From Desulfobulbaceae bacterium (GTDB lineage: Bacteria > Desulfobacterota > Desulfobulbia > Desulfobulbales > Desulfobulbaceae), in the NCBI GenBank assembly GCA_015493715.1, contig WGCP01000217.1:1-40935 (forward strand): a DNA stretch of 40,935 nt, given 5' to 3'. Shown piece by piece: positions 924 to 25,034 of this stretch. Each line of letters begins with the position of its first letter. Position 1 is the first letter of the stretch. The notes under the pieces are model-generated. The model was not told the origin of the DNA and did not search any database. It saw only the letters and a program-made list of their open reading frames with translations. A program made the position numbers and the translations under genes.

Positions 924-1868
924 TCAAACCAAGCGTCTACACAATCGGGCAAATCCTCCCGGGACAGAGCCTGAAGACCAGTAAACCTTGCCCTGCCTGT
1001 AATCCACGAACCAGTAACCGGTTGGTATGCGACGGGCATCAACGAAAACAAATGGCTGTTCTGTGGAAAAACAGGAATGAAGATACATACCCTTCTCGTT
1101 TGGACACGGTTCCATAAGCGACATCGCCTCGGCAAGAGTCGGTACCCGCCAATCATGAGCCCCAGCAAAACCCTCCATATTCAACTGTTCAATAGTTTTT
1201 TTCATGGTCCGCTTTGAACAGAGATCCAGACCGCACCTCTGCCATACAAGCCCTGTCCGCTCATCAATAACAGTCAGGCCATCACCACCATCGGCTAAAA
1301 AATTATCAAACTTTCCCTGGGGATTTATTGCCGCATCAAAAAAATTCCAACCAAGAATCAACTGATGCATCTGATCATCATCAAGGCTGAGACGCTCAAC
1401 CGAGAAATTAACCATTTCTCCTTGGAAGCCTGTTGCGCCACAGGCAGGAAGAGCAGCTCCCGGTGACTCATCTTTGGGTTGCTCCGATTCGACAGGGACT
1501 ATAAAAGGACTCTCTTCCAGGTCTATAACATTGGTGCGCAACCAATCTTTGAGGGTGGAATCAATCGGAAAATTATCTCTTGCTGACGGGGTAGCACCCT
1601 GATGAACTATACAGTCGACAAGCAGGTCCACAGGGGCTGTTATCTCGGCCAGAATATGCACAAATCCGGTACCGCGTTCCATGAGATAAAGTATGGGCGT
1701 ATCTCCCCAATTATCAATAAAAAAATAACAAATCCTTTCATCGCCTGTTCTCAACTCTTCCCGTAACCCCTTGGCGTTGAATGTACAAAACGCCAAGTCC
1801 GGGGTCATATCCCACTCAATTGTTGCAGCAGTCGAATCACTTATTTGCAACCTGTCAAATATTCCCAT
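924..1868 (-). CDS. DUF1566 (Lcl C-terminal-like) domain protein
   Basis: C-terminal half 'GLTVIDERTGLVWQRCG...AHDWRVPTLAEAMSLM...YWFVDYRQGKVYWSSGSVPGGFARLCR' matches the DUF1566 pattern (TGLMWQ...WRLPT..E...ARLCR). Confidence 0.75.
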   Translation of the reverse strand: MGIFDRLQISDSTAATIEWDMTPDLAFCTFNAKGLREELRTGDERICYFFIDNWGDTPILYLMERGTGFVHILAEITAPVDLLVDCIVHQGATPSARDNFPIDSTLKDWLRTNVIDLEESPFIVPVESEQPKDESPGAALPACGATGFQGEMVNFSVERLSLDDDQMHQLILGWNFFDAAINPQGKFDNFLADGGDGLTVIDERTGLVWQRCGLDLCSKRTMKKTIEQLNMEGFAGAHDWRVPTLAEAMSLMEPCPNEKGMYLHSCFSTEQPFVFVDARRIPTGYWFVDYRQGKVYWSSGSVPGGFARLCRRLV

Positions 1869-1936
1869 GGTAGCACCTGGTTAAATTCCCTGAGAAAAAG
1901 TCGGCCATCGCTTGGCAAGGCGATACCAACAATAAT

Positions 1937-2872
1937 TCACTTCGACGGGATGGCCTTAAAACGTTTAAGGATCCGTCCACATACATCTTGCCCTTCTCCC
2001 CCCCCTTGCTGCAAGTCATCAACCAGGGGCAACAACTCTTGAATAAGTTGTTTTTCCACAGGGTCCAGAGAAGCAATAAACCGTCTTCCCTCTCGATATT
2101 GTTTTACCCAGAATTGCCGGCTGGTTTCATGGTGAAGACACCCCTGCTTAACCCTGTCCAACCATAACCGACTTGGTAACCGGCTTTTCTTGATGGCGGT
2201 TGCCTGGGAGCGACGAATGTTTACAGCATGACTTTCACCCGATGTCCGCAGTTTGTTCTTTGTTGCAGTTGATTGCGGCTGTATATAATCTTCAGCATCA
2301 TGATCAGTCATCTTCATCGAAGATGCGGAGGAAGACACAGTATCCGGAAGGCGAACTCCATATACGGTCGAATCCCGCCTCTTACCGTTACCCGCCTCTA
2401 CGGGCATGGATTTTTTTGCGGTTGAGTCTTTCTGCAGTTCCGGAGCAAGAGTACTCTTGCGCGTGACCATGGTTTTCATTGGTCGTAATTCAATCGGCGA
2501 TGGAGCGTCGCTGGTAATATTTAAAAACAGAACCACCGAGGCGGCTGCGGCAAGAAAAGAACCGGCCCATACAATAAATCTCGGCCGAAACACCTTATGA
2601 GTGGTATCTTTATTCCTTTTCTTGTCAAAACGAACTATTTTCGAGAGTTCTACCCAATGTTGATAACAGCCTGAACAATTCGCCAAATGGAGAAGATACT
2701 GTTCTCCCTCCTCCGTTGAGCAGGCGCCATCAACCAGGGCCGCCATTTCCTCATCCGAAAGACAGGAACCTTCCTCATCATTGCTACCGGAAAGGGCCAG
2801 ACCCAGCAGGGCCGTCCTCTTGTCCGCATCATTTGATCGATGTATTGAATATCGTTTTGCCATTTTCAGCAC
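1937..2872 (-). CDS. Putative anti-sigma factor with N-terminal zf-HC2-type zinc-binding motif and one TM helix
   Basis: 'LSDEEMAALVDGACSTEEGEQYLLHLANCSGCYQHW' resembles the zf-HC2 HxxxCxxC motif. TM helix 'FIVWAGSFLAAAASVVLFLNI'. Directly downstream of a sigma factor-like gene. Confidence 0.7.
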   Translation of the reverse strand: MLKMAKRYSIHRSNDADKRTALLGLALSGSNDEEGSCLSDEEMAALVDGACSTEEGEQYLLHLANCSGCYQHWVELSKIVRFDKKRNKDTTHKVFRPRFIVWAGSFLAAAASVVLFLNITSDAPSPIELRPMKTMVTRKSTLAPELQKDSTAKKSMPVEAGNGKRRDSTVYGVRLPDTVSSSASSMKMTDHDAEDYIQPQSTATKNKLRTSGESHAVNIRRSQATAIKKSRLPSRLWLDRVKQGCLHHETSRQFWVKQYREGRRFIASLDPVEKQLIQELLPLVDDLQQGGGEGQDVCGRILKRFKAIPSK

Positions 2873-2936
2873 CTATCCATATATTCAGACGGACAAAACA
2901 ACTTTATTTGTCGTCCCGTACCGGTCAGCGCTTCCT

Positions 2937-3764
2937 TTACTCTTCATGCAACAGTTGCCGCAGTTCATCACTGATCCCCACTCGATCAAATTCGCACCGC
3001 AATCGAGAAAGTAGACGCCGCAGTTTCCCGTGAACCTGATTTGCATTAAGCCCAAGCATTTCCCCTGCCCAGGTAACGGAAAGATCCTCCTGAAAACAGA
3101 GCTTAAGTAAAAGACGTTCTTGAGCATCAAGATCAAGGGAAAAGTTATCGGTGAAAAGCGACACAGCCTGGACTTCGGAAATGCTCTGACCACTTTTGCT
3201 GAAAAGCAGTTCAAAAAAGGTCTCGCGTTCTTTTGCCAATATCTGTTGTTCAGGAGTCGGAATTGCCGAATGCATCCTTTCCTGATCCTGCACCGTCTTC
3301 TCATTGATCTCATCCAGAGAGATTTCACTTCCCTGATGACGGCCGCAATGAATAATGCGCTCCAGAATTTTCCATGCCGCATTCTCCACCTCTGCCCGCA
3401 AATATTTTCCGCTTCGGGTAATAACCGTTTCGACGGCATCAGCAACAGCAAAACGCTGCAGGCAGAGAAGTTGAAAGAGAACGAGCCAGATACCGCCCAG
3501 ATCCATCACCCATGTCGGAGGTCGCAGGCGCCCGTATTTTTTTCGGGAAAAATCTTCAAGAAGGCGAATACAGAGAGAGGAGAGATAGGTGGAAAACTTT
3601 GCCCGTCCACTGAAGGCGCGCAGCCGGTGATAATCATCCTCTTCAAGACGATTCAGCAGGTAAAGCGCAGCCTCCTCGGCAAGGGTGTCGTCCGTAAATC
3701 TACGCCCGGCAATTGAATTGATCAACGGCCAAGCCGCTGTCAGCTCCTGTTTGTAATCAATCAA
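2937..3764 (-). CDS. Sigma-70 family (ECF-like) RNA polymerase sigma factor
   Basis: Region 2-like 'FSGRAKFSTYLSSLCIRLLEDFSRKKYGR'. Region 4-like 'LDAQERLLLKLCFQEDLSVTWAGEMLGLNANQVHGKLRRLLSRLRCEF'. Long linker between them. Paired with an anti-sigma gene. Confidence 0.72.
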   Translation of the reverse strand: MIDYKQELTAAWPLINSIAGRRFTDDTLAEEAALYLLNRLEEDDYHRLRAFSGRAKFSTYLSSLCIRLLEDFSRKKYGRLRPPTWVMDLGGIWLVLFQLLCLQRFAVADAVETVITRSGKYLRAEVENAAWKILERIIHCGRHQGSEISLDEINEKTVQDQERMHSAIPTPEQQILAKERETFFELLFSKSGQSISEVQAVSLFTDNFSLDLDAQERLLLKLCFQEDLSVTWAGEMLGLNANQVHGKLRRLLSRLRCEFDRVGISDELRQLLHEE

Positions 3765-3789: not shown

Positions 3790-3895
3790 TGGCTGGACCA
3801 GATTTTTAAACGTCACAGCCACAACCAGATAAGCGTAGACTTCGACAATGAAAATAGCCCGGAGCGGAAACAGTTCGTGGGCTATTTTCAGACAA
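3790..3895. repeat. Dispersed intergenic repeat C (copy C1), with a 12-bp perfect hairpin
   Basis: 'ATGGCTGGACCAGATTTTTAAACGTCACAGCCACAA' recurs (inverted) near 18894-18929. Hairpin TGAAAATAGCCC (3849-3860) / GGGCTATTTTCA (3879-3890). Confidence 0.7.
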
Positions 3896-6387: not shown

Positions 6388-6559
6388 ACAAACCTCCTTT
6401 AGAGTGAGGAATCAGGATCGATTCTCGTACGTCACGATCCCCTACTGAGTTTGACACGTTTCATTATTTTCCTTGACTCTACCAGAGGTGGTCTGTCATA
6501 TAGTGACAGGCGGTGTTATTTTTTTCATTTTTTTCATTTTTTTCGGATACCACATAAAA

Positions 6560-6753
6560 GATGGTCTCGTAAAAAGTCCAGACAATGCCTAAAGATGGCT
6601 ATGTGAAAATACAGATATACAAAGCGAGACTCCGGGTAAGCGTAGACTCCAAGGAGTAGTGTTCTGTGGCGGGTCTTAATTATTACATGTAGTTTACCCA
6701 CGAATCGCCACAGGACACACGACACCGTAGATCGAAGTTTTTACGACGCTATC
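6560..6753. mobile_element. MITE-like element A (copy A1), 194 bp, flanked by 6-bp direct repeat ATAAAA
   Basis: TIRs GATGGTCTCGTAAAAAGTC / GAAGTTTTTACGACGCTATC. Internal hairpin CTGTGGCG/CGCCACAG. ATAAAA on both sides. Homologous to 9746-9930. Confidence 0.85.
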
Positions 6754-6808
6754 ATAAAAAAAACCTGCGTGGCGCACTCTCCCGGCAGGACCAATTCGGT
6801 GCACAACG

Positions 6809-7741
6809 ATGTCCGTCCTTGAGCGAATCTATTTTTTCCATGGAAAAATTCAGTCCGGCGGCTATCCCAATACCAGCCACCTGATCGATGAATTTGAAAT
6901 TTCGCAGTCCACCGCGCACCGGGATATTGCCTACCTGCGGGAACGATTGCTGGCACCGCTGGCATTCGACACCAAAAAAAACGGCTTTTACTATACAAAA
7001 ACGTTCCGACTTCCCTTTGAAAACAGTCCCGCCATGACCATGATTCTTGGTCTGCTCGGTAATATGGCCGAAGAAACCGGGCTGACCGAACTCCCCGAAC
7101 TTGCGGCAATCAAACAACGGTTGCAGGAGGTTCTTTTCCCAGGACAGCGCAACATGGGCGATCTTGTCTACTGTGAATGGGTGGAGAAGGAACTGATCAA
7201 CAAGCACATATTTTCCACCGTGCTGAACGGCCTGAGAGAACAACAGCAACTCCGTGTAACCTATCGCGCCGGAAGCGGCCATATAAGCACTCGCACAATC
7301 GAGCCGTTGAAGCTGATTAACTACCAGGGACGCTGGTATCTGCTGGCCTGGTGCAGAACCAAAAAAAACCGCCGAATGTTCCACCTGGCTCGGATACAAG
7401 AGGCCCGGATACTGCAGGAACCGGTCAATCGGAGTCTGGACGGTGATGATAGCTGGCTGCAGGCAAGTTTCGGCATTTTCAAGGGACCCGCCACATCAAA
7501 GGTATCCATCAGATTTACCGGTACAGCGGCCGAGATTGTTCGCCATCAGATATGGCACCATCAGCAGAAAATCGAGGATGAAAAAGACTCCATCCGGTTG
7601 ACCCTGCCTATTGCCGATGATCGGGAATTGATAATGAAGGTGCTGCAATTCGGCGCCCGGGCGGAAATTCTTTGTCCGAAGAAACTACGGCGGCGACTTG
7701 CTGAAGAAATAAAAAAAATGGCGAAAAACTATAAGCCCTGA
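6809..7741 (+). CDS. HTH/WYL-domain transcriptional regulator
   Basis: N-terminal HTH 'LIDEFEISQSTAHRDIAYLRERL' and WYL core 'RTIEPLKLINYQGRWYLLAWCRTKKNRRMFHLARI'. Confidence 0.9.
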   Translation: MSVLERIYFFHGKIQSGGYPNTSHLIDEFEISQSTAHRDIAYLRERLLAPLAFDTKKNGFYYTKTFRLPFENSPAMTMILGLLGNMAEETGLTELPELAAIKQRLQEVLFPGQRNMGDLVYCEWVEKELINKHIFSTVLNGLREQQQLRVTYRAGSGHISTRTIEPLKLINYQGRWYLLAWCRTKKNRRMFHLARIQEARILQEPVNRSLDGDDSWLQASFGIFKGPATSKVSIRFTGTAAEIVRHQIWHHQQKIEDEKDSIRLTLPIADDRELIMKVLQFGARAEILCPKKLRRRLAEEIKKMAKNYKP

Positions 7742-7824
7742 CCGCACTGCCCGCTCTTTCCAGAACCACCATGCTTTCTCCATGAAAAAATCAAAGAAGA
7801 AAGTAGTTACATAAGGAAACTATC

Positions 7825-8835
7825 ATGCACGACAAAACTATCGCCGTTGTCCTGGCCGCCGGCAAGGGAACCCGTATGAAATCAGATCGCGCCAAGGTCC
7901 TGCATGAGGTCTTTTTCAAGCCCATGCTCCATCATGTGCTTGATGCAGTCATCGGGGCAGGCATTGAGCACATGGCCGTCATTGTCGGCCATCAGAGGAA
8001 AAAAGTCCTGGCCGCCATTGACCAATACGCCCACCTGCCCGTCATCCAGAGGGAACAACTGGGCACAGGTCATGCCGTACTCTGTACGAAAAAGGCCTGT
8101 GAAAAGAGCGGACAGGTCATGATTCTGTGCGGAGATACTCCACTTATCAGGTCGCAAACCCTTCAAAAAATGCTCAAGGATCATCAACAGAACAATGCTA
8201 TCATTACTCTGATGACCACCGTGCTTGAAGATCCCTTCGGCTACGGCCGGGTTATCACTGATGAGAATGGAAATATCATCAGAATCGTTGAGCAGAAAGA
8301 CGCCGATGATAAACAACGAGAGATACGGGAAATCAATACCGGCATCTACCTTGTCGAGAAAGAATTTCTCTTTCAGGCCCTGCAAGAGGTGGGCACCGAC
8401 AACAGCCAAGGAGAGGTCTACCTGACCGACATTATTGCAATAGCCCGCAGAAATGGCCATGCGGTCCATAAATTTTTCCATCCCCATGCCATTGATGTTC
8501 TGGGGGTTAATTCGAGGGTTGAGCTGGCCCAGGCCCACGGGGAACTGCGGATGCGCCATAACCGCAAGGTCATGCGCAGCGGGGTGACCATGTACGCACC
8601 GGAAACGATCCTGCTTGATCCGGAAAGCAGGATCAGTCGGGATACCATCATCCATGGGGGAGTGCAGATAACCGGTCGGTCCGAGGTGGGGCAAAATGCA
8701 CGGCTGGAAACAGGCGTGGTCCTGCAGAAAGCTACATTGGGCGCACACGCCGTTATCGGCGCCCACAGTGTTTTACACAACTGTACCGTGGAGGCGGAAG
8801 AACATATTCCGCCCCTGACCTACAAAGTCGGCTGA
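7825..8835 (+). CDS. GlmU-like nucleotidyltransferase (UDP-GlcNAc pyrophosphorylase-type domain with a short left-handed beta-helix tail)
   Basis: 'VVLAAGKGTRMKSDRAKVLHEV', 'QREQLGTGHAVLCTKKA', 'LCGDTPLI', 'GYGRVITDENGNIIRIVEQKDA', 'EINTGIYLVEKEFLF'. Only 336 aa. Confidence 0.85.
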   Translation: MHDKTIAVVLAAGKGTRMKSDRAKVLHEVFFKPMLHHVLDAVIGAGIEHMAVIVGHQRKKVLAAIDQYAHLPVIQREQLGTGHAVLCTKKACEKSGQVMILCGDTPLIRSQTLQKMLKDHQQNNAIITLMTTVLEDPFGYGRVITDENGNIIRIVEQKDADDKQREIREINTGIYLVEKEFLFQALQEVGTDNSQGEVYLTDIIAIARRNGHAVHKFFHPHAIDVLGVNSRVELAQAHGELRMRHNRKVMRSGVTMYAPETILLDPESRISRDTIIHGGVQITGRSEVGQNARLETGVVLQKATLGAHAVIGAHSVLHNCTVEAEEHIPPLTYKVG

Positions 8836-8839
8836 TGCC

Positions 8840-9646
8840 ATGCTGAGAGTCAACGAGCGACCCTATCCATTTCATGAGGGAATGCGCCTGGGAGAACTTG
8901 CCGACCGGCTGAAGCCGGGCGCTGATATCCTGGTACTCAACGGCACGCCTGCTTCCAGAGATTCCCTGCTCCAGGACGAAGACGTCTGCGCCCTCATCAA
9001 AATCGGCGAAATTCCCTCGGCCATTGACATGCAGCACACCCTTGAAGCCAGACATGGCCGGGATGTGCAACGATTGTTCAAAAAGGCTAGCGTAGGTATC
9101 ATGGGGATCGGCGGACTGGGTTCGGCCGTGGCGCTCAGTCTTGCAAAAATCGGCATTGGAAAATTAATCCTTGCCGACCATGACGTGGTAGTTCTCAGCA
9201 ATATTCACCGCCAGCACTATTTCATCGACCAGATCGGCATGAAAAAAACTGCGGCCCTGAAAAAAACAATGGTCAGGGTTAATCCATTTGTCAGCATCAC
9301 TGCCCTGGACGTCAAGCTTACTGAACAAAACATTCCCGAGCTGTTTGGGGGCGTTGATGTACTTGTCGAATGTTTCGATGATCCGACAATGAAAGCCGAA
9401 GCCCTGCGGGCGGCACTGCAGCACCTGCCGGAAATGGGCTATGTCGGCGCTTCCGGTGTAGCGGGATACGGAGACGGCAATACCATTACCTGCAAAAAAA
9501 TAAAGGCCGGTGTTTTTATTGTCGGTGACGGCACCTCGGAGGCCGGAGACAGCTCAGGTCTCTTTGCGCCGAGAGTTGGAATAGCCGCCCATCACCAGGC
9601 CAACTTGGTCGTTCGCCTGCTTCTTGGTCTTGAAAAAAACAAGTAA
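8840..9646 (+). CDS. thiF: ThiF-family sulfur carrier adenylyltransferase with N-terminal ThiS-like domain
   Basis: 'GIMGIGGLGSAVALSLAKIGIGKLILADHDVVVLSNIHRQHY' (ThiF/MoeB/E1 fold). N-terminal 'VNERPYPFHEGMRLGELADRLKPGADILVLNGTPASRDSLLQDEDVCALIKIGEIP' is ThiS-like. Next to thiS, thiG and thiH. Confidence 0.88.
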   Translation: MLRVNERPYPFHEGMRLGELADRLKPGADILVLNGTPASRDSLLQDEDVCALIKIGEIPSAIDMQHTLEARHGRDVQRLFKKASVGIMGIGGLGSAVALSLAKIGIGKLILADHDVVVLSNIHRQHYFIDQIGMKKTAALKKTMVRVNPFVSITALDVKLTEQNIPELFGGVDVLVECFDDPTMKAEALRAALQHLPEMGYVGASGVAGYGDGNTITCKKIKAGVFIVGDGTSEAGDSSGLFAPRVGIAAHHQANLVVRLLLGLEKNK

Positions 9647-9745
9647 TTGTGTGCCCTATTTCCCTTTTTCAGTGTTGGCAACCAGCCCTGTTCCGATTAT
9701 GATTGATTTGTTTTCCGCTGAAACATTAGAGATAATCTTCTGAAT

Positions 9746-9930
9746 GATGAACTCGTAAAAAGTCTAAATAATACTGAAAAAAGGCTAAGTAAAAACACAG
9801 ATATACAGGTAAGCGGAGCGGAGACTCCGAGGAGTAGTGCTCCAGGGCGGGTCTTAACTACACATGTAGTATGCCCACGAATCGCCCCGGGACACACGAC
9901 GTAGTAGATCGAAGTTTTTACGACGCCATC
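9746..9930. mobile_element. MITE-like element A (copy A2), 185 bp, flanked by 6-bp direct repeat CTGAAT
   Basis: TIRs GATGAACTCGTAAAAAGTC / GAAGTTTTTACGACGCCATC. CTGAAT at 9740-9745 and 9931-9936. Conserved internal hairpin and loop with A1. Confidence 0.85.
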
Positions 9931-9934
9931 CTGA

Positions 9935-10144
9935 ATGAAAAGAGTGAAAATACAATGTAACGGTCGACAACAGACCCTTGCCGAGGACACTACCCTTGCC
10001 GAACTGCTGGATGATTTAGGGCTGCCTGCAGACTCCGTTGTCGCTGAAATCAATAAAAAAATAATTGATCGTGATCAGTATGCAACCTTCAAGCTTTCTT
10101 CAGGCGACCAGGTAGAGCTGATTCGTTTTGTTGGAGGAGGGTGA
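9935..10144 (+). CDS. thiS: Sulfur carrier protein ThiS
   Basis: 69 aa, ubiquitin-like, ending '...[13 protein letters not shown]' (Gly-Gly C-terminus). Directly upstream of thiG. Confidence 0.92.
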
Positions 10145-24824: not shown

Positions 24825-24942
24825 GAAAAAATAATTATCCCGTACCCGTATAATGCGCCGTTTTTTGCTCCTGATTCAAGACGTACAAAGGGGCGCATAT
24901 TGTGAACATGTACTTATTTCGTAATAAGTAAAATTTACACAA

Positions 24943-25034
24943 TGATGGCTAAGTAAAAACGCAGATATACTGGTAAGCTGGGCGCAGCGGAGACTCCGGG
25001 AGATTAGACAAAAAGACAATTTTTTAAGGTGGCC
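24943..25034. repeat. Partial/chimeric copy of element E (E3) carrying the internal module of element A
   Basis: Right end GATTAGACAAAAAGACAATTTTTTAAGGTGGCC matches the E1 end. Left part ATGGCTAAGTAAAAACGCAGATATACTGGTAAGC matches the A2 interior. Confidence 0.65.

Follow-up and report, generated by a model that had tools for sequence, protein, structure and literature searches.

Genomic context and structure of two MITE-like copies

The window (here, the whole 40,935-nucleotide stretch of Desulfobulbaceae DNA that was analysed) carries two copies of a short repeated element, A1 (194 bp) and A2 (185 bp), hereafter family A. A1 has a conserved promoter-like block (TTGACT..TATAGT, identified by eye) on one side and the gene for a WYL-domain regulator (6809-7741) on the other, and A2 lies between thiF (8840-9646) and thiS (ORF 9935-10144) of a thiFSGH cluster, downstream of a promoter-like site (9675-9703) that falls within a block conserved among relatives. 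From alignment of these relatives, the natural start of thiS may be the GTG at 9944. Both copies sit in presumed 5' leaders. The parts of the two copies, with their terminal inverted repeats (TIRs) and target site duplications (TSDs), are as follows.

6554-6559, no strand: left TSD of A1, ATAAAA, an exact match to 6754-6759
6560-6753, plus strand: MITE copy A1, its site empty in G001, G005 and G007
6560-6575, plus strand: left TIR of A1
6594-6609, plus strand: inner repeat of the end motif in A1, sequence GATGGCTATGTGAAAA
6659-6718, plus strand: central hairpin of A1, arms 6659-6670 and 6707-6718
6738-6753, minus strand: right TIR of A1
6754-6759, no strand: right TSD of A1, ATAAAA
9740-9745, no strand: left TSD of A2, CTGAAT
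9746-9930, plus strand: MITE copy A2
9746-9761, plus strand: left TIR of A2
9780-9795, plus strand: inner repeat of the end motif in A2, sequence AAAGGCTAAGTAAAAA
9808-9829, plus strand: nested mini-repeat of A2, GGTAAGCGGAGCGGAGACTCCG, not in the 161-bp subfamily
9837-9895, plus strand: central hairpin of A2, arms 9837-9848 and 9884-9895
9915-9930, minus strand: right TIR of A2
9931-9936, no strand: right TSD of A2, CTGAAT
About 24922-25002, plus strand: relic of a truncated third copy, with the inner repeat and mini-repeat only and without the right half

An earlier note on this DNA had described two elements at 6560-6753 and 9746-9930 with matching inverted ends of about 18 bp, conserved interiors, a perfect 6-bp direct repeat around each (ATAAAA and CTGAAT) and no transposase of their own. 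Both sets of coordinates were borne out, the two direct repeats are exact, and the interiors are indeed conserved, with A1 and A2 78-85% identical across aligned blocks. The ends do match one another as inverted repeats, but they measure 16 bp rather than 18 and are imperfect, being complementary at 13 of 16 positions (81%) within each copy (sequence GATGNNNTCGTAAAAA, with the core TCGTAAAAA). The ORFs listed across A1 and A2 are short or chance frames, none of them transposase-like, in agreement with the earlier reading. Features beyond that reading are a repeat of the end motif further inside the left half of both elements (GATGGCTAAGTAAAAA-like), the central hairpin, the truncated third copy, and empty sites in relatives.

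Copy number, target duplications and empty sites

A genome search with the element, as the earlier note had proposed, returned at least 40 copies in the window's own genome (G000; 3.66 Mb in 477 contigs), many with an exact 6-bp duplication of their own. Among 40 entries scanned there, most of them intergenic, exact 6-bp repeats flanked 19, a count to be read with the fact that the script mis-delimited some of the entries without one. Matches to the end motif were likewise in excess of controls, both in the window (8 with at most two mismatches, versus a mean of 1.3 after shuffling) and across the genome (150 with at most one mismatch, versus 7 for a reversed control pattern). The TIRs are conserved across 45 aligned copies, and an alignment of copies with their flanks shows duplications that vary from site to site. 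Unpaired end motifs inspected in the same genome adjoin ordinary genes and were set aside.

Across all fetched loci (1.40 Mb), exact 6-bp flanking duplications accompanied 112 of 394 TIR pairs spaced 40-210 bp apart, versus none of 984 pairs spaced 400-6000 bp apart. These loci hold 133 distinct elements with both these ends and exact duplications, which are mostly of 6 bp, sometimes of 7 and in a few cases of 5. The targets follow a pattern A....T, with A at position 1 or T at position 6 in 203 of 222 symmetrised counts. Tandem elements with one common duplication (e.g., L187 and L361) suggest that the flanking duplication of an existing element is itself a good next target. In G024 and elsewhere, TIRs spaced as widely as those of an IS proved to belong to separate MITEs around host genes, and such pairs were rejected.

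The empty sites that the earlier note had suggested seeking in relatives were found for both copies. The A1 site is empty in the congeners G001, G005 and G007, where the promoter-like block and the regulator gene are kept and about 200 bp are missing, and the A2 site is empty in G001, where the gap spans 46 bp versus 229 in the window; the sequences at these empty sites are too diverged for the junctions to be read letter by letter. G005 is also without A2, but a separate copy, flanked by the duplication TGTTTT, has inserted at a different point of this gap. Another copy is common to G000 and G007 and has identical flanks in both, which fits inheritance from a common ancestor.

Of seven congeners examined, six contain matches to the A2 element, four of them at least 30, and G002 contains none; matches extend to some other genera. 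Among the matches listed, the named hosts of the end motif belong mainly to Desulfobacterota and also to Nitrospirae; single matches, again among those listed, fall in bins labelled Neomarinimicrobiota and Bacteroidales, where bin contamination is possible. Searches by blastn gave no match in plasmids and short, weak matches only in phages, and a literature search on the end sequences returned no relevant paper. Two predicted viral contigs from IMG/VR have such elements or end motifs inside them (L147, about 1740-2482; L141, 1-116), and in L141 a TTCGACGGGCTCAG palindrome adjoins the end motif. Four viral contigs that match the motif and have one common flank were rejected, the match being probably part of a coding sequence.

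Interior families and the central hairpin

The same ends enclose widely differing interiors: 125 elements fell into 20 interior families. The genome G024 alone (L108, L110, L113, L115 and L118) has 82 exact end motifs, mostly GATGAAATCGTAAAAA, around a CACAGAG-palindrome and other interiors. Structurally, the mean fold z-score was below -2 in 9 of the 20 families and not in the others, and since about half of the families are without a strong hairpin, a hairpin is not needed for mobility, and we rejected it as a mobility requirement.

Within family A, the central hairpin covaries, with eight pairs showing a double change and none of 500 shuffles scoring as high, a control that relatedness can inflate; the changes perhaps represent only a few events. 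Two near-fixed G-U pairs favour the plus strand. These observations, together with the position of both window copies in presumed 5' leaders, are what one would expect if the repeats were incidental and a structured RNA or regulatory element, such as a leader RNA or attenuator, had been spread by selection. Against this reading stand the exact TSDs, the empty sites and the many sites occupied, the lack of a strong fold in about half of the same-end interior families, the lack of a clear orientation bias towards the neighbouring gene among the own-genome copies checked, and the Rfam search, which gave no match for the elements and only rRNA in the window. We therefore regard such an RNA as very improbable as an explanation of the repeats; a role of the hairpin in expression is possible, although gene orientation gives it no support.

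The palindromic nature of some interior families, and a RAYT-like Y1 gene (L103 412-1440, on G000:C430) about 240 bp from an unpaired end motif, could also point to REP/BIME-like palindromes spread by a single-strand Y1 (RAYT/IS200-type) transposase. However, many interiors are not palindromic, and TSDs of 6-7 bp are the rule for these elements, unlike REP/RAYT elements, which have no TSD and offer a single-strand hairpin as substrate. Y1 transposases are not known to duplicate their target or to act on TIRs. We consider this the most improbable of the readings weighed here, slightly below even a selected RNA.

The long form of family A (about 178-194 bp) contains a mini-repeat of 17-29 bp, GRTAAGCG..AGACTCCG, which is missing from the 161-bp form. 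The unit, GRTAAGCG-(0-16 nt)-AGACTCCG, occurs both within family A copies and alone, and L052 has three units in tandem; it seems to be a small interspersed repeat in its own right. Its positions in the window are as follows.

3828-3844, 6635-6651, 9808-9829 and 24972-24998: mini-repeat GRTAAGCG..AGACTCCG
17097 counted on the reverse complement, minus strand: mini-repeat GRTAAGCG..AGACTCCG

An IS1182-like candidate mobiliser

The starting point was a search for genes next to unpaired ends, which in G065 (L178) led to a degraded transposase gene flanked by an end motif on either side. Its full-length relatives encode 573-584 aa and form multicopy elements of 1.9 kb in G125 and G154; they also occur in G162, and in G174 a copy is split over two frames. 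At these loci, nine copies of the IS combine both ends with an exact TSD of 6-7 bp, and by the same criterion none of 986 long TIR pairs at all other loci qualified. Eleven more IS copies were then retrieved, in some of which the retrieved stretch stopped short of one end, and six of the eleven (L354, L355, L356, L361, L362 and L363) have duplications of 6-7 bp, whereas L357, which has both ends, has none. In total, 15 IS copies combine matching ends with a TSD of 6-7 bp, and one IS end (GATGGCGTCGTAAAAA) is identical to the right end of A2 at 16/16 positions.

The transposase matches Pfam DDE_Tnp_1 (PF01609), DDE_Tnp_1_6 (PF13751) and DUF772 (PF05598) above their cut-offs. Against the NCBIfam model IS1182 (NF033551), most of the model is aligned at E-values of about 1e-44 to 1e-50, with scores of 152.9-171.8 bits that fall below the cut-off of 270, and we therefore call it IS1182-like rather than IS1182. 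The transposase is thus only a distant relative of IS1182.

Closer to the window, the congener G006 encodes a complete transposase ORF of 575 aa, flanked on either side by end motifs. At this locus (L348 1322-3413), the complete IS (1429-3306) lies directly between two 101-bp MITEs, which have 6-bp duplications of their own (ATATTT and AATTTT); no matching TSD was found for the IS itself. The congener G005 contains transposase fragments, including an internally deleted copy (L352 1341-2047) in which the first transposase codons are joined to the C-terminal part between GATG..TCG[TC]AAAAA ends. This copy has no TSD, and it is plausibly a step towards a short element. The MITE interiors show no obvious similarity to the IS outside the terminal 16-20 bp, and simple internal deletion of the IS therefore does not account for the MITEs.

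The transposase gene bounded by the same TIRs that the earlier note had proposed looking for thus exists in relatives, complete in one congener, but is missing from the assembly of the window's own genome, where no transposase of the IS1182-like lineage was detected among 477 contigs. Fragmented assemblies tend to lose repeats. No transposase copy was detectable either in G009, G018, G023, G024 or G028, all rich in these ends. ISNCY_1 transposases, present in the window's own genome, in G009 and in several MITE carriers, were rejected as candidates, being without these TIRs.

The many MITE-rich genomes without a detectable IS1182-like gene would fit a different, undetected DDE transposase as the mobiliser, with the IS1182-like IS as another user of similar ends, and the number of transposase families tested was limited. 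Against such a transposase, IS and MITEs match in their ends (16/16 at one end), in TSD length including the 7-bp variants and in the A....T preference; no other long TIR pair with a TSD was present in 1.4 Mb; and the ISNCY-type transposases of G000 and G009 are without these ends. We judge this alternative unlikely, if well ahead of an RNA or a Y1 origin. It is thus highly likely, in our assessment, that A1 and A2 are non-autonomous MITEs, mobilised most likely by the IS1182-like transposase of a 1.9-kb IS with the same ends. Mobilisation in trans, proposed in the earlier note, gains support from an IS with the same ends and TSD, and we still infer it, from sequence comparison.

Mechanistically, A1 and A2 retain the termini, about 16 bp long, on which recognition by a DDE transposase depends. 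The IS1182-like protein (DUF772 plus DDE_Tnp_1, 573-584 aa) would bind the MITE ends, GATGNNNTCG[TC]AAAAA, and cut at GATG...CATC. It would prefer AT-rich A....T targets, where staggered cuts of 6, sometimes 7, bp would give rise to the 6- to 7-bp duplications, and a DDE cut-and-paste reaction would move the MITEs in trans.

Relation to known elements and implications

The kind of element is already known, and family A shows ordinary MITE behaviour; what is new is probably the family member and its probable mobiliser. Chunjie, a MITE of Geobacter uraniireducens, is described as 178-235 bp long with conserved TIRs and direct repeats, in 38 copies plus partial ones (Chen et al. 2008 in PMC10969869), mostly intergenic and with one copy within an operon (PMC10969869). 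By this description, Chunjie and family A are alike in size, TIRs, direct repeats and copy number, and family A, unlike Chunjie as described there, is linked to a candidate transposase. The ISMac2 MITEs of Methanosarcina acetivorans (160-169 bp) have an IS1182-family partner, and are listed with direct repeats of 4 or 0 bp and inverted repeats of 25-26 bp (PMC3852290). Both they and family A are, by this description, non-autonomous and similar in size, whereas family A has TSDs of 6-7 bp, ends about 16 bp long and hosts in a different domain of life.

As for the candidate mobiliser, it resembles the IS1182 family (NF033551) in its DDE and DUF772 domains and in aligning over most of the model, and differs in its score of 153-172 bits, below the cut-off of 270. 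IS1272 is classed in IS1182. Its TIRs may form a stem-loop, and it is reported to replace target inverted repeats without TSDs (PMC5678879), unlike the IS1182-like IS, which has exact 6-7-bp TSDs in 15 copies.

A broader and more speculative reading, which we consider rather unlikely, is that one short-end transposase lineage might be a general carrier of about 20 unrelated, often palindromic interior families (CACAGAG-, CATTCC..GGAATG- and TTCGACAAGCTCAG-type) across Desulfobacterota and some other phyla, and that compensatory changes might preserve the family A hairpin because it serves mobility or the expression of host genes.

The inferred trans-mobilisation can now be put to the test with one particular transposase gene and a minimal substrate that is defined. 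A single source is also suggested for several repetitive palindromes scattered through the genomes of sulfate reducers, and the elements may account for some of the breaks between contigs and some of the differences in intergenic sequence that separate related metagenome bins.
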